A DNA stretch of 64,000 nucleotides from Chloroflexi bacterium ADurb.Bin180 (lineage in GTDB: Bacteria; Chloroflexota; Anaerolineae; UBA2200): the NCBI GenBank assembly GCA_002070215.1, contig MWCV01000001.1, positions 1 through 64,000 of the forward strand, read 5' to 3'. Positions 2 through 12,003 of this stretch are shown here, piece by piece (the stretch's first letter is position 1; each line of letters opens with the position of its first letter). Made by a program: the position numbers and the translations under genes. Below the pieces are notes generated by a model. It had not been told where the DNA came from. It searched no databases and worked only from the letters and a program-made list of their open reading frames with translations.

Positions 2-3000
2 CCGCCGGCCAGAATGTCGCGTGAGGATGAGGAGCTCATCCTCGACCAGGCTCACCAGATGACTCACTATCGGCGCTACTCGGACCGCCGCTTCTACAAG
101 GGCACAGAGTACGCCAATATCATCGAGTCTCTGGCCCAGCGCCGCTGCGCGGAGTGTTTCGCTACCAAGGACGTGCCCGCCGAAGCCATCCGGGTCAACG
201 TGCAGCCTCTTTCCGGCGCGGCAGCGAACCTGGCCGTCTACAGCACCCTGCTTCGCCCCGGCGACACCCTGATGGGCATGAACCTTTTCCAGGGCGGCCA
301 CCTCACTCATGGGAGTGAGTTCAACCTCTCAGGCAAACTCTACAAGGTGGTTTCCTACAATGTTGACCGGACAACAGAGCGCCTGAACTATGATGCCATC
401 CGCGCTCTGGCGCTCGAGAGCCGGCCCAAGATCATCGTTGCCGGCTACACCTCCTACCCCTGGGCACCAGACTGGGCCAGATTCCGGGCGATCGCCGACG
501 AGGCCGGTGCCCTCTTGATGGCCGACATTGCTCACACCGCAGGCATGGCCATTGCCGGTGTGTATCCTAGCCCAATCGGCTATGCCGACGTGATCACCTT
601 TACCACACACAAGACCATTTGCAGCACCCGTGGCGCTGTAATCATGACCACTGATGACGACCTGGCCAAGACCATCGATGCCGCTGTCTTTCCCGGTGAA
701 CAGGGCGGCCCGCACGTGAACAAGTTCGCGGCCCTCGCTGTAGCTCTGGGCCTGGCCAAGACCCCGGCCTTTCACCAGCTCCAGAGAAACATCGTAGCCA
801 ACGCTCAGGCCCTGGCGGCGTCGCTCACCAGGCGCGGCTTGAAGTTGGCCTATGGCGGTACCGACACACACATGGTATTGGTCAACCTGCGTTCGATTCC
901 CAGCAAGACCGGGTTCCCGCTGCGCGGCGAAATCGCCGCCCGGTTGCTTGATCTGGTAGGGATCGTGGTCAATAAGCAGACCATCCCTGGCGACGAGGTA
1001 ACTGCCCTGGCCAGCGGCATTCGCCTGGGTACTCCCTGGGTCACCCAGCGAGGCCTTACCGCAGAGCACCTGGACGAGCTGGCGGACATCATCTTCCGCG
1101 TGATCACCAACATCCACCCCTTTGCCTACATGGGCGCAACAGAACTGCCTCGCGGCAAGATCGACCTGCAAGTCCTCGAGCAGGCCAGGCGCGACGTCGA
1201 TGACCTGGCTTCACGCACCCTCTGTGAGGTGCCGGCGAAAGGGCTGGGCTACCCTCACTTCCAGGTACAGCCCAAGACCCCCGCTGTGGCACAGCCCCTC
1301 GGTCTGTTCAATTCCCTGCCCAAAGCCAGGGCCACGTCAGACGCTGCTCTGCTCGACACCACGGACAACGGTGTGCTGCGTATCACTGGCTGGCGCGCCA
1401 AGCCGCATCTTCAGCAGGTATCGACGGGAAATGTTGCCGTGCTGCACGTCGGCCAGGCCATGCGCACTCTGCTGCTCGACGCGGACGGCGCGGTCCTCGA
1501 CGATGTGGCCATCCTGCGCAACCCGGCCGACGCGCGCGGCCGGGACAACTACTTGCTGCTCACCAACCCGGCCAATACCACCCGGGTCACTTCCTGGTTG
1601 CGTGGCCTGGGGGATGGCTACATCCTCTTTGACCACCAGGACGTATTTCGCAAAGTCGAAGGGCCGGTGACGGTCGAGGACCTAAACGGGCCCGCTCTCT
1701 CGGATGCCAGCGCACGATGTGTGTCCCTGGCTTTGCGCGGCGCCGGGGCGCCAGCGGTCCTGTCCAAACTCGGCGTACCAGCCCTTCAGCAGGGTACCGT
1801 TTGGTCTGGCACACTCCACGAATTGCCGGTTACCGTCGCCGCGCTCGGCTACGGGACTGGCGATACGCACTATGAACTGCTGGTGCACCCCGATCAGGCA
1901 GCCCGGTTGTGCCAGATCCTTCAGCAAGCAGGCGCAACGCCCCAGACAGACCAACTCCGCCAGACAGCGCGTGCCAGGGCCAGTCTGCCCGACTATGCCG
2001 GCAAGCGGCCCTCCGCACAGGAACTCTACGCTGGCCCGCTCCAGTCCTGGTTCTGCCTGACCAAACCCTACTTTGTCGGACAGGGTTCGCTGAAAGCAGT
2101 TCAACCTGCGGCGACGAAACAAGAGTTCACCTGGACGGCCGATGAGCACGCCCCTGTTCGCCGGACTCTGCTTTACGAGGAGCACCGCAAGAGGACAACC
2201 AAGATCATTCCTTTTGCCGGCTGGGATATGCCAGTATGGTACACCAGCGTCGGAGAGGAACATCACGCCGTCCGCACGGCCGCGGGTCTGTTCGATGTAG
2301 CTCATATGGGTGTCCTGGAGGTTTCAGGGGAGCACGCTGCCAGCTTCCTCGACGTCGTCGCCAGCAACTATGCCCGCTGGATCGATCCCGGCCAGTCGGC
2401 CTATGCCTACCTCTTTGATCCCGACGGGCGGGTCATCGACGACATCATCATGTACCGCCAGGCCTGGGATTCCTACCTCCTGATAATCAATGCCTCCAAC
2501 GCCGAGAAGGACTTGGCCTGGCTGCAAGCAGTCAATTCAGGACGCTACCTGATCGACCGCGATAACCCGGCAATCCAGGTCGAAGGTCAGGCCATCATCC
2601 GCAACCTCAAGGACCCGAGCGCAGGTGCGGACCAGCGAGTTGATCTGGCTCTCCAAGGGCCCAGGTCTCTGGCCATCTTGCAGAGTCTGGCCGCCGATGC
2701 CAGGACGCGGCTGGCACTGTCGCACATCAAGCGCACCGAGCATGCGCGCCTCAAGCTCGCCGGGCTGGATATCATTGCCGCGCGCACCGGCTACACCGGC
2801 GAGGAGATGGGATTCGAGCTGCTCGTGCATCCAGACCACGCCGTCGAGTTGTGGAATACCCTGCTTGAGGCTGGTGCTCCCTATGGTATTGTGCCCTGCG
2901 GACTGGCTGCTCGCGACTCGACCAGAATCGAGGCGGGGCTACCACTCTACGGGCATGAGCTTGAGGGTGAGATGCACATCTTGCCTACAGAGGCAGGCTT

Positions 3001-3409
3001 TCCACTCTATGTCAAGTTCCACAAGCCATACTTTATCGGGCGCAAGCACTGCCTGGTAGCCGAAGCTCAGAAGAAGCGAGCGTTGATCCGCTTCCGTGTT
3101 GACGAGCCTGGTGTGCGGGCGCTGCGTGGCGGAGATCCCGTGGTCAACAAGCGTGGCCAGTACATCGGTCGGGTGACCAGTTGCACCTTGGTCGGTACTC
3201 GCCAGATTGGCCTGGCCCTGGTGGACAAACGGTACAATGAGCCCGGTTCGGAGATAGGCGTCTTCCCCTCCTCCCAGGCCGATGAGGGCACACTCAAGTC
3301 ATTGAAGGACCTGACCAGTGGCGACAAGGTGCCCCTGTCCATCAAAGCCACCATTCTCAAGCGTTTCCCTGATGCAGAGGAAAAGGCTGGCTGGAAGCAG
3401 CAGCTCTAG
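2..3409 (+). CDS. glyA-gcvT: Serine hydroxymethyltransferase / GcvT-like / aminomethyltransferase (GcvT) fusion, 5' partial
   Basis: The frame is open from base 2, so the N-terminus lies outside the window. Residues are counted from the Met at base 14. Residues 1 to about 410 are a PLP-dependent serine hydroxymethyltransferase (serine + THF to glycine + methylene-THF): GGHLTHG near 94, DIAHTAG near 171 and the PLP lysine in TTHKT (K200). Residues about 710-1131 are the T-protein of glycine cleavage, with FAGWDMPVWY, FDPDGRVIDD near 800 and TGYTGEEMGFELLVHP. Between them, about 450-700, is a second T-protein-like segment with the same elements in the same order (LLLDADGAVLDD, NYLLLTNPAN, YELLVHPD, KPYFVGQ against KPYFIGR). 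The middle copy looks degenerate, so its role may be structural. The stop TAG abuts the ATG of the next gene. The other glycine-cleavage genes converge from the opposite strand. SHMT and GcvT calls are firm; the middle-domain call is by eye. Confidence 0.92.
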   Translation, partial: PPARMSREDEELILDQAHQMTHYRRYSDRRFYKGTEYANIIESLAQRRCAECFATKDVPAEAIRVNVQPLSGAAANLAVYSTLLRPGDTLMGMNLFQGGHLTHGSEFNLSGKLYKVVSYNVDRTTERLNYDAIRALALESRPKIIVAGYTSYPWAPDWARFRAIADEAGALLMADIAHTAGMAIAGVYPSPIGYADVITFTTHKTICSTRGAVIMTTDDDLAKTIDAAVFPGEQGGPHVNKFAALAVALGLAKTPAFHQLQRNIVANAQALAASLTRRGLKLAYGGTDTHMVLVNLRSIPSKTGFPLRGEIAARLLDLVGIVVNKQTIPGDEVTALASGIRLGTPWVTQRGLTAEHLDELADIIFRVITNIHPFAYMGATELPRGKIDLQVLEQARRDVDDLASRTLCEVPAKGLGYPHFQVQPKTPAVAQPLGLFNSLPKARATSDAALLDTTDNGVLRITGWRAKPHLQQVSTGNVAVLHVGQAMRTLLLDADGAVLDDVAILRNPADARGRDNYLLLTNPANTTRVTSWLRGLGDGYILFDHQDVFRKVEGPVTVEDLNGPALSDASARCVSLALRGAGAPAVLSKLGVPALQQGTVWSGTLHELPVTVAALGYGTGDTHYELLVHPDQAARLCQILQQAGATPQTDQLRQTARARASLPDYAGKRPSAQELYAGPLQSWFCLTKPYFVGQGSLKAVQPAATKQEFTWTADEHAPVRRTLLYEEHRKRTTKIIPFAGWDMPVWYTSVGEEHHAVRTAAGLFDVAHMGVLEVSGEHAASFLDVVASNYARWIDPGQSAYAYLFDPDGRVIDDIIMYRQAWDSYLLIINASNAEKDLAWLQAVNSGRYLIDRDNPAIQVEGQAIIRNLKDPSAGADQRVDLALQGPRSLAILQSLAADARTRLALSHIKRTEHARLKLAGLDIIAARTGYTGEEMGFELLVHPDHAVELWNTLLEAGAPYGIVPCGLAARDSTRIEAGLPLYGHELEGEMHILPTEAGFPLYVKFHKPYFIGRKHCLVAEAQKKRALIRFRVDEPGVRALRGGDPVVNKRGQYIGRVTSCTLVGTRQIGLALVDKRYNEPGSEIGVFPSSQADEGTLKSLKDLTSGDKVPLSIKATILKRFPDAEEKAGWKQQL

Positions 3410-5424: not shown

Positions 5425-6939
5425 CTAGCTCTTGAGACAGGTCAGCACTGGCTGGCGCGCTGCTTGAACCTCGTCCAGCCGCGCCACCGGTGCGCTGTGC
5501 GGCGCATCGTGTAACAGCTCCGGGTTGGACCTCGCTTCCTCCGCGATTCGTATCATTGCTTCGGCAAAGCTATCCAGAGTTTGCCTGCTTTCAGTTTCCG
5601 TCGGCTCGATCATAATCGCTTCGGGAACGATCAACGGGAAGTAGACTGTCGGTGGGTAGAATCCATAGTCCATCAGTCTCTTGGCAATGTCCAGAGTATG
5701 TACTTCCGGAGCCCCGGGAAGTCTGCCGGAGAGCACGAACTCGTGCATGCAGGTGCGGTCGTAGGGCAGCGGGTACACTCCCTTGAGCCGACCAAGCAGA
5801 TAGTTGGCATTGAGCACCGCGTTCTCACTGGCCTGGCGCAGGCCGGCAGCTCCGAGCATGCGAATGTAGGTGTACGCCTTGACGCACACGCCAAAGTTCC
5901 CATAGAACGCCTTCACGCGGCCAATTGACTTCTCAGGCATCGACAGGCGATAGAAGTAGGTTTCCTCGTCGTCCTCACAGCCACATTCTTCCTCGCCGCA
6001 GCCGCACGAGTCATCGTCACACTCATGCTCGTCCTCTGCCAGTTCTCTGACTACTATCGGTCCCGGCAGGAAAGGAACCAGCGCCGCGCTGACTCCGACC
6101 GGGCCAGCCCCCGGCCCCCCACCTCCGTGAGGCGTGGAGAAGGTCTTGTGCAGATTCACGTGCATCACGTCAAACCCCAGCTCGCCTGGCTTGACAATGC
6201 CCATGATGGCGTTCAGGTTCGCACCGTCGCCGTACAGCAGTGCCCCGCAGCCGTGGACCAGCCTGGCGATTTCAATCACCTGTTCCTCAAACAGGCCCAG
6301 GGTGTTGGGATTGGTCAGCATCAGGCCGGCCACTGTTCCGTCGCATAGGCCACGCAACGCGTCCAGGTCAACGTTGCCCCTGGCGTCTGACGGAACCTTG
6401 ACCGTCTCAAAGCCAGCCATCGCCGTAGACGCCGGGTTCGTGCCATGGGCAGAGTCCGGTATGAGCATCCGCATGCGCCGGCTGTCCCCTCGCGACTGGT
6501 GGTAGGCGCGAATAATCAGCACCCCGGCGAGTTCGCCGTGCGCGCCTGCCGCCGGCTGCAAGGATACGCCGCCAAAGCCGAGGATTTCTTTGAGAAACTC
6601 CTGCAGCTGGTAGAGCAGGAACAAGTTGCCCTGCACCGTCCGCTCATCCTGGTAGGGATGGGTCTGCACAAAGCCGGGCAAGCGCGCTGTCTCCTCGTTG
6701 ACTTTGGGGTTGTACTTCATAGTGCAAGAACCAAGGGGGTAGAATCCCTTGTCCAGCGCGTAATTGAGCTGAGAGAGCCGAACATAGTGCCGAATCAGGT
6801 CAACCTCACTGACCTCAGGCAGAGGCAGATCATGGCGAAGCATCCCCTGCGGCAGGCGCGCTTGAGGCACATCACAGCTCGGCAGGCTTACACCGACCCT
6901 GCCGGGTGAGCTCATCTCATAGACCAGTGGCTCGTTCAT
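5425..6939 (-). CDS. gcvPB: Glycine dehydrogenase (decarboxylating) subunit 2, P-protein beta
   Basis: 504 aa, the PLP-carrying half of the split P-protein that decarboxylates glycine and passes aminomethyl to lipoyl-GcvH. The PLP lysine is K265 in [17 protein letters not shown], and the N-terminal [10 protein letters not shown] motif is present. An unusual acidic, cysteine-rich stretch sits at residues 301-327 (C307, C312, C314, C319, C321, surrounded by D/E) between the PLP domain and the C-terminal domain, at a point where I expect only a short charged loop. The start ATG overlaps the stop of gcvPA as ATGA. The downstream end is a strong hairpin terminator. The family assignment is very firm; the insert is treated as a separate finding. 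Confidence 0.95.
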
Positions 6940-8294
6940 TCCGCCACCTCCACTTCCCCGAGCGCTTCCACCAACTCGTCGATTTCCTCTCTAATGTTCA
7001 TCTCCGTCACACAGACGAGCATGGTGTTTTGTAGCTGAGGGTAGTCGTGACTAAGGTCATACCCGCCGATGATCCCATACTCATCGAGGAGATACTGGTT
7101 GATCTCTGCCACCGGCCGTGGGCAGCGCAAGGCAAATTCCTTAAAGAACGGCCGCCGGCTCAGCAGGGCGAATCCGGGAACGGCAGCCAACTGCTGAGCT
7201 GCGTAGTGTGCCTTGTGGAAGCACAGCTCGGCCACCTGACGGAGACCGCTCTTGCCCATCGCCGTCAGGTAAACGGCGGCGGCCAGAGACATAAGGGCCT
7301 GGTTGGAGCAGATATTGGATGTGGCTTTCTCCCGCCGGATGTGCTGCTCGCGCGCCGACAGGGTTAGCACAAAGCCTCTTTTGCCGTTCTTGTCCACGGT
7401 CTGGCCCACGATGCGACCGGCCATCTTGTGCACATACTCTTGCTTGCAGGCAAAGTAGCCCAGATAAGGTCCACCAAAACTCAACCCGCCAGCCAGAGAC
7501 TGCCCCTCTCCGCACACAATGTCCGCACCATATTCAGACGGCGGAGCAAACAGCCCCAACGAGATCGGGTCTGCTGTAACTACAAAGAGAGCACCAGCAA
7601 CGTGCGCTGCATCAGCCAGAGTCTTGAGCTCCCTGGGTTCTCCCAGACTACCCAGGAAACCGGGGTTCTGTACCAGCACACAAGCCGTCTGCGCGTCCAC
7701 CTCTTGCTGCAAGGATGACAGATCCTGCGGATCGCCATCCTCGCCGGCAAAAGTCAGCCCCATTCCCTGAGCATAAGTACGCACCACGGCCCGGTATTCC
7801 GGATGCACACCGGGTGACACCACTACCTTGCGCCGTTTGCCCCTGCCCACGCTCACCGCCATCAACACTGCCTCGGCGAGCGCGGTGGCCCCATCATAGT
7901 GAGACGCATTGGCCACATCCATGCCAGTAAGGGCGCAGATCAGGCTCTGATACTCAAAGACGCTCTGCAGCGTTCCCTGACTGATCTCTGCCTGGTAGGG
8001 CGTGTAAGCAGTGTAGAACTCGCCGCGGCCAATCACGTGCCCTACCACGCTGGGCACGAAATGCCGGTAGGCCCCTGCCCCGAGGAAACAAGGGGCATGA
8101 TTGAGGTCCAGGTTGTACTCGCTGAGTTCCCCCATTTCGCGCAGCACTTCGAGCTCTGACACCGCCGGCGGTAGGTTCAGCACGGGGTAGCGAAACTCCT
8201 GCGGTATGTCGTGGAAGAGCTCGTCGATGTCTCGAGCGCCTATCGCCTTCAGCATCGCGACACGGTCAGCCTCCGTGTTTGGCACGTAGGACAC
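6936..8294 (-). CDS. gcvPA: Glycine dehydrogenase (decarboxylating) subunit 1, P-protein alpha
   Basis: 452 aa, close to the usual length of about 450. It forms the alpha half of the two-subunit P-protein with GcvPB. Family signatures include [10 protein letters not shown] at the N-terminus, [15 protein letters not shown] near 70, [16 protein letters not shown] near 93 and [13 protein letters not shown]. The start is GTG at 8294, immediately next to the TAA stop of gcvH, and the stop overlaps the ATG of gcvPB by 4 bp, so H-PA-PB are translationally coupled. It completes a glycine-cleavage set with the GcvT fusion; no lipoamide dehydrogenase is present in the window. Confidence 0.95.
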
Positions 8295-8693
8295 TTAGTG
8301 GCCTCCCTTTTCTTCCTCACATTGCTTCTGGTAGGCAGCGGCATCCTGGAGCCCTTCGTACTCCGCGACATCAAGAACCTTGAAGCGGATCAACCACCCA
8401 TCGCCAAAGGGCTGCTCGTTCACCAGTTGGGGCTGATCAGCCAGCTTCTCATTGACCGCCAGGATCTCTCCCCCCATCGGCATATAGATATCCGATGCCG
8501 CCTTGACCGATTCAACAGTGGCGAAAGTATCCCCTTTGGCAAAGGTCTCACCGACCTCGGGCAGCTCAACATAGACCACGTTGCTCAGCTCGTGCTGGGC
8601 AAAGTCACTGATCCCGCAGAGCCCTTCATCGCCCTCCAGCTTGACCCATTCATGGCTGGATGCGTAACGGCGGTCTTGCAGATACTCTACCAT
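8295..8693 (-). CDS. gcvH: Glycine cleavage system H protein
   Basis: 132 aa lipoyl carrier that shuttles the aminomethyl group between P- and T-proteins. The lipoylation lysine is K64 in [13 protein letters not shown], with YASSHEW at the N-terminus and a C-terminal [10 protein letters not shown]. The chosen ATG at 8693 lies 6 nt after an AAAGGAGG ribosome-binding site. The upstream in-frame ATG at 8699 abuts that site, and the longer frame to 8729 starts upstream of the predicted transcription start, so both are unlikely. First gene of gcvH-gcvPA-gcvPB, with its own promoter about 30 bp upstream. Confidence 0.95.
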
Positions 8694-8727
8694 CTCCATC
8701 CTCCTTTGGATTCGTCGTGCCGCGCAC

Positions 8728-8756
8728 ATTCTACGGCCAGAGCCAGGTTAGGGCAA
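8728..8756 (-). promoter_or_regulatory. Sigma-70-type promoter for gcvH-gcvPA-gcvPB
   Basis: On the minus strand TTGCCC (8751-8756), a 17-bp spacer and TAGAAT (8728-8733). The predicted transcript starts near 8721, leaving a leader of about 28 nt before the gcvH ATG. This is too short for a glycine riboswitch. Confidence 0.65.
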
Positions 8757-8808: not shown

Positions 8809-9528
8809 CTAGCGCGCAAACGTCCACTCAGGAAGCATATACTTCTCTCGCCAGAGCTGGCGGGCAAGGCGTTTCTCCCTGGCAAAGAGCACTCCGGGGC
8901 TGAGGTCTACGCCCAGAGCGCGCATCAGCCCCATACCCAGGGCGCGCGCACCAGCTTCAAAATCAACGACCCCGCCGACGATTTCGCTGATGGTGCTCAG
9001 TCTCTGCCTGGGCAGTACATCGCTGCAGGTGACCATACAAGGGGTTAGGGCGATGGTCCCCTGGTGCAGAAGAATCCCCTGGCGCCGTGCCTGAGCGGCT
9101 GTGGCGATGGCGTGATTGTCCAAGTCCACGTGAACCGGCGGTGCATAGCGCGAATCAATTCCCAACAACCGCAGTCCCTCGATAACACCCGAGGATATCC
9201 GTTCGTAGGAGGAGATAACGTCGCCTGGCAACAAGGTATCGGATAGTGAGACAACTACACTGTACGACAGGTCGCCGCCGTGCAGGCATGTCCCTCCGCC
9301 GGTCAGCCGCCGTACGCATTTGAGGTCTTTGTGGCTCAAGTCCGAGCGCATGGCGCTAATCTGCTGCAAGTAGCCGACGCTGTACCAGGGGCCATCCCAC
9401 GAGTAGATGCGCACTGTCGGGGGAACGCGATGCTCGGCGGCCAGGGTCAAGGTAGCCTCGTCAATAGCCATATTGACGTAGCCATCAGCAGGTCCAGTCA
9501 AGACCAGACGCCACTCGGCAAAGAGCAT
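8809..9528 (-). CDS. Lipoate-protein ligase A-like protein lacking the usual catalytic lysine
   Basis: 239 aa protein of the BPL/LplA/LipB fold, expected to attach lipoate or octanoate to GcvH. The nucleotide/lipoyl loop is clear: RRLTGGGTCLHGGDLSYS at about 73-90, with EATLTLA near the N-terminus. The later motif, normally (R/K)KIxGSAQxR, reads HAIATAAQARR at 139-149, so the lysine expected to contact lipoyl-AMP is alanine (A140). No cysteine of the LipM octanoyltransferase type occurs nearby. ATG with AGGAGG 5 nt upstream. It follows the two radical SAM genes on the same strand and precedes gcvH. It may belong to the sLpl(AB) group that works with LipS1/LipS2, or be a non-catalytic partner. 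Confidence 0.8.
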   Translation of the reverse strand: MLFAEWRLVLTGPADGYVNMAIDEATLTLAAEHRVPPTVRIYSWDGPWYSVGYLQQISAMRSDLSHKDLKCVRRLTGGGTCLHGGDLSYSVVVSLSDTLLPGDVISSYERISSGVIEGLRLLGIDSRYAPPVHVDLDNHAIATAAQARRQGILLHQGTIALTPCMVTCSDVLPRQRLSTISEIVGGVVDFEAGARALGMGLMRALGVDLSPGVLFAREKRLARQLWREKYMLPEWTFAR

Positions 9529-9576: not shown

Positions 9577-10632
9577 TTAGCCTGCTTCACCTTGTACTGC
9601 CAGCGCTTCATCCAGCGCCTGACGTATCTCTTCCGCCCTCAGCGGCCGTGGATAGTTGTACATCGCCTTTCCAGGGCGCTCGTTGTAATACGGGCGATTG
9701 CAGTCTGTGCAGCCGGCGGTCTGGAAGGCGACACCGTCGGCCAGCAGAGCCACAATCTCGGCGCGACTCTGGCCAAGAAACGTGATCGCCTGGTCAGCTC
9801 CAAAGACCATGTCTTCCAGGCGGATCCTCTGCGTTCGCAGCAAATACCACGCTGCCTGAATGCGCCGGTACACCGTTATCGGCGGGGGTGCGTGTGCTGC
9901 CCAGGCCGTGCCGGCCACAGGAGTGAAAGCAAAGAGCCCAACGGTGACTTTGCGCTCCACCATCTCCTGCAGCCGCTCCAACATCTCCCTCTCGGTTTCA
10001 CCCAGTCCTACGATCACGTGTGTTCCAATACGCCCCGGGAACTCCTGTGCCGCTTGCCGGAGCAGTTCCAGCCGTCTGGCCCATCCCTGACCCTTGACAG
10101 CGTGGAAGACTCGCTCGCCTGCAGCATCCAGGGCGAGGGTTACCCTCTCGGCACCACTGTTCAGCAGGCGTTCAATCGCGTCGAGCGAGGGAGCAGCGAT
10201 GGAGGTGCAGATGGGCAGACCCTCTATGCTGGCCAGGTCGCGCACAAGCTCCTCAGCGCGCTGCAGGTAGCCATCGGACACGGTCACCTGAAGGCAGCAT
10301 CTCTTGACCAGGCCTTGTCCGTATCCCGTTGAGATCGCTTTCAGCGTGTCCGCCCAGGCAAAGCTCGGCCACACCACCCGAGATAGAAAGCCCGATTGTG
10401 CGCTGCTAGACCAGGCCTGAGCGCAGAACGAACAGTCACAGCGGCAACGTTCACCGACCATCAGGTAGGCAGTGGTAGGCAGGTATTCTTGCTTCAACGG
10501 TTGCAGGCCAAGGACTGCCGCTGTCCCGGCGGAAACGCGCACTTCCCCTGACACAGCCGACGATGATCCCTGGTCGTCTCGGCGCGCCAGGGAGACAAGC
10601 ACATCGGTCACGGGCGCCGGATCACGCAACAT
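9577..10632 (-). CDS. Radical SAM protein, lipoyl synthase LipS1/LipS2-type (biotin synthase-like)
   Basis: 351 aa radical SAM enzyme. The SAM [4Fe-4S] motif CxxxCxxC is C63, C67, C70 in ERCRCDCSFC. Further cysteines that could hold an auxiliary cluster lie near the C-terminus (C308, C311 in AGCTDCNRP) and at KRCC in the middle. The sequence resembles biotin-synthase-related proteins more than classical LipA, whose CX4CX5C auxiliary motif is not seen. It overlaps the preceding radical SAM gene by 25 bp and is followed by the lipoate-ligase-like gene. A pair of radical SAM proteins next to a ligase and gcvH matches the LipS1/LipS2 sulfur-insertion system. I cannot say with confidence which of the two components this is; it may be LipS2. 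Confidence 0.78.
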   Translation of the reverse strand: MLRDPAPVTDVLVSLARRDDQGSSSAVSGEVRVSAGTAAVLGLQPLKQEYLPTTAYLMVGERCRCDCSFCAQAWSSSAQSGFLSRVVWPSFAWADTLKAISTGYGQGLVKRCCLQVTVSDGYLQRAEELVRDLASIEGLPICTSIAAPSLDAIERLLNSGAERVTLALDAAGERVFHAVKGQGWARRLELLRQAAQEFPGRIGTHVIVGLGETEREMLERLQEMVERKVTVGLFAFTPVAGTAWAAHAPPPITVYRRIQAAWYLLRTQRIRLEDMVFGADQAITFLGQSRAEIVALLADGVAFQTAGCTDCNRPYYNERPGKAMYNYPRPLRAEEIRQALDEALAVQGEAG

Positions 10633-11516
10633 TCATTCTCCCAACTGACAGACAACCGTTGCGCCAAAGCCATCTCGACGGCCGCCCTGGCTGGATTCAC
10701 AATCCTGACCACTCCCGCGGCAATTGCCAGCGGATCGAGCTCCTGACGGTAGCGGCCGCCCGGCCTCATACACCCGAGGTAGACCGGTACATCACCCAGT
10801 ACAACCCCGGCGCGCTCGATAAAGTCCACCACACTGTTTACACTTGGAGGGCAGCAGTCCGCATAGCGCGTGCCGGGAGTGGGCACCATAACCAGGAGAA
10901 CAAGCGCCTCCGCACCCTGGTCAGCCAGCCATTCAAGGGCCCGGTCCTCCCCTCTCCATTCGCCCCCGTACAAGCCCAGCGTCAGGTGCGGCACAACACG
11001 CCCGTGGCGGCGCAGCATGGCGTAGGTGCGCTTATAGTCGGCCACGGTGGCGTCCAGCCCGTAGACCTCCCTGATCGTCCGGTCATCGCCCACTATGTCA
11101 AAGGACACCACATCCAGATAGGGAAGGATGGGCCGGATCTCTCGTTCGCTGGCCAGACCCACATGCCAGTTGAATAGCCTTCCAGAATGCAGCTCGGCCA
11201 ACCTGTCCAATGATGCGCCGAGTGGCACTCGCCCTTGGAGGTCACACCCACCGGAAATCAGGCAGCTCGTGTACCCATCAGCACCGGCCTGGTCGATGGG
11301 TACCATGCCCTTGAGATACTGCCCACCGCAGTGAGCACATTTCAGCGCGCAGTCGGTGCCAGTCAGACTGATCGGCAGAGTGTGGCTCGGCCGCACCAAC
11401 GCAACACGGGCGCCGACGCCGTGAGAGCCTACCGCCGGTGCGCGTTCTAAGGCGGCCCTCGGCGCATCGCCGATGATCGCCTGACCTGGTTGCGGTTCGC
11501 AGTCTCCATCCATCAT
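10608..11516 (-). CDS. Radical SAM protein, second component of LipS1/LipS2-type lipoyl synthase
   Basis: 302 aa radical SAM protein. CxxxCxxC is C56, C60, C63 in LTGTDCALKCAHCGG. A C-terminal cysteine pair (C297, C298 in ENECCVIRRP) and a single cysteine near YLGCMRPGG could support a second cluster. It overlaps the next radical SAM gene by 25 bp, so the two products are probably made together. In the LipS1/LipS2 system each enzyme inserts one sulfur into an octanoyl chain on the carrier protein. Gene order here (radical SAM, radical SAM, ligase, gcvH) supports that role. An unrelated radical SAM maturase is possible but less likely. Confidence 0.75.
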   Translation of the reverse strand: MMDGDCEPQPGQAIIGDAPRAALERAPAVGSHGVGARVALVRPSHTLPISLTGTDCALKCAHCGGQYLKGMVPIDQAGADGYTSCLISGGCDLQGRVPLGASLDRLAELHSGRLFNWHVGLASEREIRPILPYLDVVSFDIVGDDRTIREVYGLDATVADYKRTYAMLRRHGRVVPHLTLGLYGGEWRGEDRALEWLADQGAEALVLLVMVPTPGTRYADCCPPSVNSVVDFIERAGVVLGDVPVYLGCMRPGGRYRQELDPLAIAAGVVRIVNPARAAVEMALAQRLSVSWENECCVIRRP

Positions 11517-11530
11517 GTTAGTGCGTGCTG

Positions 11531-11899
11531 CTATTCGACCGTATCGTCGACGGGTATCTTCAGCGTGCCCGCTTCTTTGGTCTTGGGGCTGAGAACGAGC
11601 CTGTGCGGGCCAGGCGCCAGAGGGTCGCCATCGACCTGGATAGTGACTTTTAGCCCCACACCGAATTGGAGCGGTGACCGCGCCGAGACCTCAGTGCTGG
11701 TCAGCGTCTTACCGCCGGCAACCACCACCCTGGTCTGTTCCAGGGGACATTCCTTCCCATCTACCACCACGGGCAGCATACCGACGATGGTTCCAGGCGC
11801 AATGGTGTTCTGGATAGCCAACTCAAAGCCGTTGGCCGTGTTCTTCAAGCTTTTCTTGACATAGAGCTTTTTCAACAGAAAGACAGGCAGAGAACTCAA
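11531..11899 (-). CDS. Small predicted beta-rich protein, possibly DUF6379-like
   Basis: 122 aa, no signal peptide and no transmembrane segment. TTG start at 11899 with AGGAGG 7 nt upstream. It has alternating hydrophobic strands and the elements SLKNTANGF, VVVDGKECP, FGVGLKVTIQVDG and LAPGPHRLVL. These loosely resemble DUF6379 proteins, the family of the beta subunit of C-glycoside deglycosidase. I did not recognise it firmly. It is the first gene after a near-consensus promoter and is only 14 bp from the first radical SAM gene, so it is probably cotranscribed with the lipoylation genes. Confidence 0.7.
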   Translation of the reverse strand: MSSLPVFLLKKLYVKKSLKNTANGFELAIQNTIAPGTIVGMLPVVVDGKECPLEQTRVVVAGGKTLTSTEVSARSPLQFGVGLKVTIQVDGDPLAPGPHRLVLSPKTKEAGTLKIPVDDTVE

Positions 11900-11974: not shown

Positions 11975-12003
11975 AGTATAGCCCGTACAGAACAGAATGT
12001 CAA
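11975..12003 (-). promoter_or_regulatory. Near-consensus promoter for the radical SAM / lipoate-ligase operon
   Basis: On the minus strand TTGACA (11998-12003), a 17-bp spacer and TATACT (11975-11980). Transcription would start near 11968, giving a leader of about 70 nt before the TTG start at 11899. The same two hexamers and spacing occur in the murA promoter at 55.5 kb. Confidence 0.8.

Follow-up and report, generated by a model that had tools for sequence, protein, structure and literature searches.

Two overlapping radical SAM genes of Chloroflexi bacterium ADurb.Bin180 (phylum Chloroflexota, class Anaerolineae) are, judged from the proteins they encode, genuine lipS1 and lipS2. They lie in a stretch of 64,000 nucleotides (contig MWCV01000001.1, positions 1 to 64,000), called here the window. 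We consider it likely that the LipS1/LipS2 synthase belongs to one unit with GcvH, its likeliest client, and with the two subunits of glycine dehydrogenase, GcvPA and GcvPB; that LipB octanoylates GcvH; that a neighboring protein with the LplA fold is a noncatalytic partner; and that LipA coexists with this system. The features of the region are as follows.

2..3409, plus strand: fusion of SHMT, a degenerate T-like domain and GcvT; N-terminus cut by the contig start
5386..5419, minus strand: predicted intrinsic terminator (14-bp stem and T tail) that closes the operon
5425..6939, minus strand: gcvPB (NF003346, 731 bits; cut-off 441)
6936..8294, minus strand: gcvPA (NF001696, 619 bits; cut-off 364)
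8295..8729, minus strand: gcvH, lipoyl carrier of the glycine cleavage system (TIGR00527, 146 bits; cut-off 115.85)
8809..9528, minus strand: LplA/LipM-fold gene (product P0003) without catalytic lysine, LipM-type cysteine or LplB domain (PF21948)
9577..10632, minus strand: lipS2 (P0001), predicted radical SAM lipoyl synthase LipS2, first sulfur, C8 (NF053743 match and invariant ligands)
10608..11516, minus strand: lipS1 (P0002), predicted radical SAM lipoyl synthase LipS1, second sulfur, C6 (NF053742 match and invariant ligands)
11531..11899, minus strand: small ORF of 122 amino acids with an HMG-CoA_red_N-like domain (PF25653; Pfam 74.9 bits, cut-off 27), predicted first gene of the operon
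11975..12003, minus strand: predicted sigma-70 promoter, TTGACA-17-TATACT, 11 of 12 positions, a consensus match only
12055-12026, minus strand: terminator-like hairpin directly upstream of the predicted promoter

LipS1 and LipS2 in a predicted glycine cleavage operon

The lipS2 and lipS1 ORFs encode proteins of 351 and 302 amino acids and share 25 bp (10608-10632). Each protein carries a single CxxxCxxC motif, formed by C63/C67/C70 in LipS2 and by C56/C60/C63 in LipS1. This arrangement, with the adjoining LplA-like gene (8809-9528) and gcvH (8295-8729), was correctly described in the original prediction, which also named a profile search as a check on the LipS1/LipS2 assignment. In that search, LipS2 matches the NCBIfam equivalog NF053743 with 345.8 bits (cut-off 270) over positions 1-292 of the 292 in the profile, and LipS1 matches NF053742 with 261.8 bits (cut-off 230) over positions 4-268 of 268.

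The residues expected to hold iron-sulfur clusters are conserved as well. Among 19 aligned LipS1 proteins, C56/C60/C63, H177, C249, C296 and C297 are invariant, as are C63/C67/C70, C113, H205, C308 and C311 among 15 aligned LipS2 proteins. Mutagenesis of the Thermococcus enzymes has identified C230, C276, C277 and H159 of LipS1, and C85, C276, C279 and H178 of LipS2, as auxiliary-cluster ligands or as essential (PMC9585515). Matched by motif position (for LipS1, YLGCMRP, ECC and PHxTxGL) rather than by alignment of the Thermococcus sequence, these residues correspond to C249, C296, C297 and H177 in LipS1 and to C113, C308, C311 and H205 in LipS2. The profiles, the cluster ligands and a co-occurrence with missing LipA, described below, together identify the pair as LipS1/LipS2.

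The 25-bp overlap recurs at two other loci (L034 and L038), and the order lipS1-lipS2-lpl-gcvH-gcvPA-gcvPB is kept in three genomes of the same family (G002, G004 and G005). A chance arrangement is therefore excluded. LipS1 and LipS2 identities in these three genomes, with the whole gene order kept, are 48-57%. A genome of the same order (G006) has lipS1-lipS2-gcvH-gcvPA-gcvPB, without the lpl gene.

Seven minus-strand genes lie between the predicted promoter and terminator, namely the ORF at 11531-11899, lipS1, lipS2, the LplA-fold gene, gcvH, gcvPA and gcvPB, and they probably constitute one transcription unit. The proposed link to gcvH is thus borne out by conserved gene order and by a single predicted transcription unit. 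The GcvH lipoylation site (VESVKAASD) is intact, and the operon gene is the only GCV_H match genome-wide.

The HMG-CoA_red_N-like ORF adjoins lipS1 in G002, G004, G005, G006, G011, G013, G014 and G049, and stays beside lipS1 even when lipS2 and the gcv genes are elsewhere. Tail to tail with the operon, the SHMT-GcvT fusion (an ORF of 1135 amino acids) is the T protein of the same glycine cleavage pathway. Its degenerate GcvT-like repeat is 28.5% identical to the domain that follows. The same SHMT/degenerate T/GcvT architecture adjoins gcvPB in G002, G005 and G006, at 59-71% identity. A brief literature look found no open paper on SHMT-GcvT fusions in Chloroflexi.

An LplA-fold partner without the catalytic lysine

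P0003, of 239 amino acids, is a single catalytic domain that matches PF21948 with 74.7 bits (cut-off 27). An AF2 model (pLDDT 87.1, pTM 0.88) finds its best PDB matches by Foldseek in Thermoplasma LplA (TM 0.81-0.83), and the modeled protein has the LplA/LipB/LipM fold. The "special ligase" of the original prediction therefore stands as to its fold, but is doubtful as a ligase, given that it has no catalytic lysine, LipM-like cysteine or LplB domain. The lysine of the GKK[IV]xG motif is catalytic in LplA and in the Cys/Lys dyad of LipB (PMC9307952). At this position (the A141 region) P0003 has Ala, and its three sisters have Ile, Ile and Arg, so that the lysine is lost in 4 of 4 members; the corresponding segments are NHAIATAAQ in P0003 and HIIATSAQ, HIIATSAQ and QRIATAAQ in the sisters. 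In an alignment with LipM-like relatives, the xCF segment that carries the LipM-type cysteine is missing from P0003. No LplB domain is present within the protein and no lplB gene adjoins it, its neighbors being lipS2 and gcvH.

The nearest relatives of P0003 are LipM-like proteins of the same class, encoded beside lipS2, with which it shares 35-38% identity; they keep both the xCF cysteine and the lysine in 7 of 7 genomes. In a tree, the four lysine-less proteins form one clade (100/99), and the LipM-like group comes next with moderate support (83/72), so we do not claim that the partner evolved from a LipM. When genome contigs were searched with the lysine-less alignment, the members recovered were limited to two (MAG-37 and UBA6131); a single further relative, from Nitrospirae, has both the cysteine and the lysine. 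A brief look at the literature yielded no open paper on lysine-less members of the lipoate ligase family.

Between G002 and G005, the partner gene has a dN of 0.090 and a dS of 1.11 (dN/dS ~0.08), close to the values of LipS1 (dN/dS 0.119/1.37) and LipS2 (0.157/1.63). Across genera the partner is 70-71% conserved, versus 55-57% for LipS1 and LipS2. These values indicate strong purifying selection despite the lost lysine. An assembly or frameshift artefact was ruled out, because the lysine-less sequence occurs in four genomes and dN is low.

Because lysine, cysteine and LplB are all absent, yet purifying selection is strong, the partner is probably noncatalytic. On balance, we favor the view that it no longer acylates and instead binds GcvH or the octanoyl-GcvH intermediate. 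More tentatively, and with somewhat less than even confidence, we suggest that it is a conserved pseudoenzyme, derived in this Anaerolineae lineage from an LplA/LipM-type acyltransferase, that would bind GcvH or the intermediate on behalf of LipS1/LipS2, in a channelled assembly supplied with octanoyl groups by LipB.

Alternatively, the LplA-fold protein might be the operon's true acyltransferase by means of an unusual residue, making the pathway self-contained and LipB-independent. The partner's invariant residues include C164, its sole invariant cysteine, and K219 and K229, any of which could compensate for the lost lysine. C164 could be a relocated nucleophile, since it lies in the loop after the strand that carries LipB's cysteine. 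The gene's place between lipS2 and gcvH, where elsewhere LipM-like proteins with cysteine and lysine adjoin lipS2, also fits an acyltransferase, as do the strong purifying selection and the retained RR-x-TGG loop. However, the catalytic lysine of LplA and LipB (PMC9307952) is replaced by Ala, Ile, Ile or Arg in these proteins, and in the alignment C164 is out of register with the LipM-type cysteine; it lies 9 residues past the LHQG histidine, versus 19 in LipB. Moreover, all four genomes with the lysine-less partner encode LipB, so a second transferase is unnecessary. We therefore regard an active acyltransferase as unlikely, and prefer a noncatalytic partner.

Coexistence with LipA and LipB

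The original prediction noted that the window has no genes for LipA and LipB. This is correct, but the absence that it implies does not extend to the genome, as the check for lipA and lipB elsewhere showed. LipB is encoded on the same contig, at 152.8 kb (G000:C1:152798-153361), and scores 173.2 bits with NF010925 (cut-off 155) and 162.8 bits with TIGR00214 (cut-off 83.55). The full-length profile TIGR00510 detects the C-terminal 88 codons of LipA, with RSSY, at a contig edge (G000:C100:2-268); the N-terminal two thirds are missing from the assembly. A profile search with LIAS_N (PF16881) gave no match in the genome, and the absence of LipA that this suggested was dropped once the C-terminal fragment was found. 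The fragment adjoins rarA-holB, an order shared with G001, G002, G003 and G005, and this rarA is 86% identical to that of G001, which belongs to the same genus; together, gene order and rarA identity rule out contamination of contig C100. In G002 and G005, lipA is ~32 kb from lipS1, and in G002 it is on the gcvPB side. The present contig ends 11 kb beyond the operon on the gcvPB side, which accounts for the location of lipA on a separate contig. One lipoyl-domain 2-oxoacid dehydrogenase E2 is encoded in the genome. LipS1/LipS2 is thus probably a second lipoyl synthase system here, alongside canonical LipA/LipB.

Distribution among relatives

Across a set of 60 genomes, LipS1 and/or LipS2 occur in 12 of the 13 genomes that lack LipA, versus 9 of the 47 that have it (Fisher p = 2e-6, relatedness ignored). 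In genomes at least 90% complete the counts are 8/9 and 8/38 (Fisher p = 3e-4, relatedness again ignored). When both LipS1 and LipS2 are required, they become 10/13 and 8/47 (p = 1e-4) or, for the more complete genomes, 6/9 and 8/38 (p = 0.013), likewise ignoring relatedness; draft genomes are among these relatives, and absences may be assembly gaps. The one LipA-lacking exception, G040, has a ligase (221.9 bits) instead. This pattern favors the view that LipS1/LipS2 functions as a lipoyl synthase within the class.

Several genomes bear on the choice of client. G004, G018 and G029 have neither LipA nor E2 and keep GcvH and LipS1/LipS2, as expected if LipS1/LipS2 serves GcvH. In seven relatives that are at least 90% complete (G008, G013, G030, G033, G034, G041 and G048), E2 is present, LipA was not found, and the genomes encode LipS1 and/or LipS2. 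Because the latter are the sole lipoyl synthase genes found there, LipS1/LipS2 are presumably not limited to GcvH in principle. G003 keeps GcvH with LipA and has no LipS1/LipS2, so in this family GcvH can apparently be served by LipA. In the same-genus genome G001, which is 88% complete, LipS1 and GcvH are both missing, in agreement with a link between the two.

Such observations raise the possibility of redundancy, in which GcvH and E2 would both be lipoylated by LipA/LipB, while LipS1/LipS2 would be an accessory, gained horizontally and needed only under certain circumstances (low iron or anoxia, for example). Canonical LipA and LipB accompany LipS1/LipS2 in G000, G002 and G005, and G003 manages with LipA. 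In bacteria, moreover, co-occurrence of LipS1/LipS2 with LipA is common, and LipS1/LipS2 undergo horizontal transfer (Tanabe et al., PMC10332631). However, lipS1/lipS2 sit inside the gcv operon and are conserved, with their ligands intact, in three genera of the family, and G004, G018 and G029 have them together with GcvH though LipA and E2 are absent. We judge redundancy to be improbable, slightly more so than an active LplA-fold acyltransferase. An assignment of the two radical SAM proteins to a different family (BioB-like or MSMEG_0568-like), with a different substrate, is extremely improbable, because the weak BioB match of LipS2 (40.4 bits, cut-off 225) stands against full-length matches above both equivalog cut-offs, the complete set of auxiliary ligands, the linkage to gcvH and the complementarity with LipA.

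Other arrangements were seen among the relatives. In several of them LipS1 seemed to occur without LipS2, but LipS2 turned out to be encoded at another locus, next to a LipM-like gene. Such splitting of the pair is frequent in the class: lipS2 adjoins a LipM-like gene and is separate from lipS1 in G012, G014, G019, G029, G030, G008 and G054. LipB and LipA matches share one open frame at G019:C9:185037-186527, G012:C88:5548-6990 and G054:C499:9086-10600, which suggests LipB-LipA fusion proteins in some relatives. Two loci (L101 and L052, in G018:C395 and G054:C9) carry an additional LipS1/LipS2 set of divergent sequence, next to an LplAB-type protein; both genomes have the gcv-linked LipS1 as well. 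The LplAB-type protein has a cysteine-rich C-terminal region that may resemble DUF116.

Proposed pathway and significance

In the pathway that we propose, octanoyl-ACP would be the donor from which LipB moves octanoate onto the lysine of GcvH. The LplA-fold protein would bind GcvH or octanoyl-GcvH without acylating it, LipS2 would insert sulfur at C8, and LipS1 would then insert sulfur at C6. A radical SAM cluster and a sacrificial auxiliary [4Fe-4S] cluster have been shown for both Thermococcus proteins (PMC9585515), and the conserved ligands suggest that each LipS protein has them here. GcvH is the best-supported client, not the only possible one; dedication of LipS1/LipS2 to the glycine cleavage carrier, as originally proposed, is plausible and is suggested by the operon. 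The simplest division of labor would assign GcvH to LipS1/LipS2 and E2 to LipA.

LipS1/LipS2 was first described in archaea and sulfur oxidizers, and here, in Chloroflexota, a predicted operon links it to a glycine cleavage system of the ordinary kind. Its presence beside the LipA/LipB route makes the split of clients between two lipoyl synthases testable, and in several genomes of the class it is apparently the sole lipoyl synthase. If truly inactive, the lysine-less partner would be a pseudoenzyme of a kind unusual among lipoate ligases, and might reveal how the 8-thio intermediate is handed over between LipS1 and LipS2.

Comparison with known systems

The LipS1/LipS2 system of Thermococcus kodakarensis (PMC9585515) likewise comprises two radical SAM proteins of the same families, with the same radical SAM and auxiliary ligand sets. 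Its genes are unclustered, whereas those described here overlap and form part of a gcv operon, and the bacterium that carries them has LipA too. The sLpl(AB)-LipS1/S2 pathway of bacterial sulfur oxidizers (PMC10332631, PMC6067878) shares an LplA-family gene and a nearby GcvH-type carrier. However, the carrier in that pathway is LbpA/sHdr, in contrast to a true GcvH with gcvPA and gcvPB here, and the present operon has no LipT and a partner without the lysine and LplB. LipM-type octanoyltransferases, single-domain members of the LplA family, resemble the partner in being single-domain and include its nearest relatives, but the cysteine segment and lysine of these LipM-like proteins are both missing from it.

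In general terms the present layout is known. The available parts of two published accounts describe bacterial LipS1/LipS2 in neighborhoods with gcvH and ligases (PMC9585515), and LipS1/S2-Lpl in Chloroflexota along with common coexistence with LipA (PMC10332631). The partner in these parts is a functional Lpl or LplAB, whereas the one described here is lysine-less. Relative to these portions of the accounts, it is the lysine-less partner that is new, and the LipS1/LipS2 pair itself is of a known kind.
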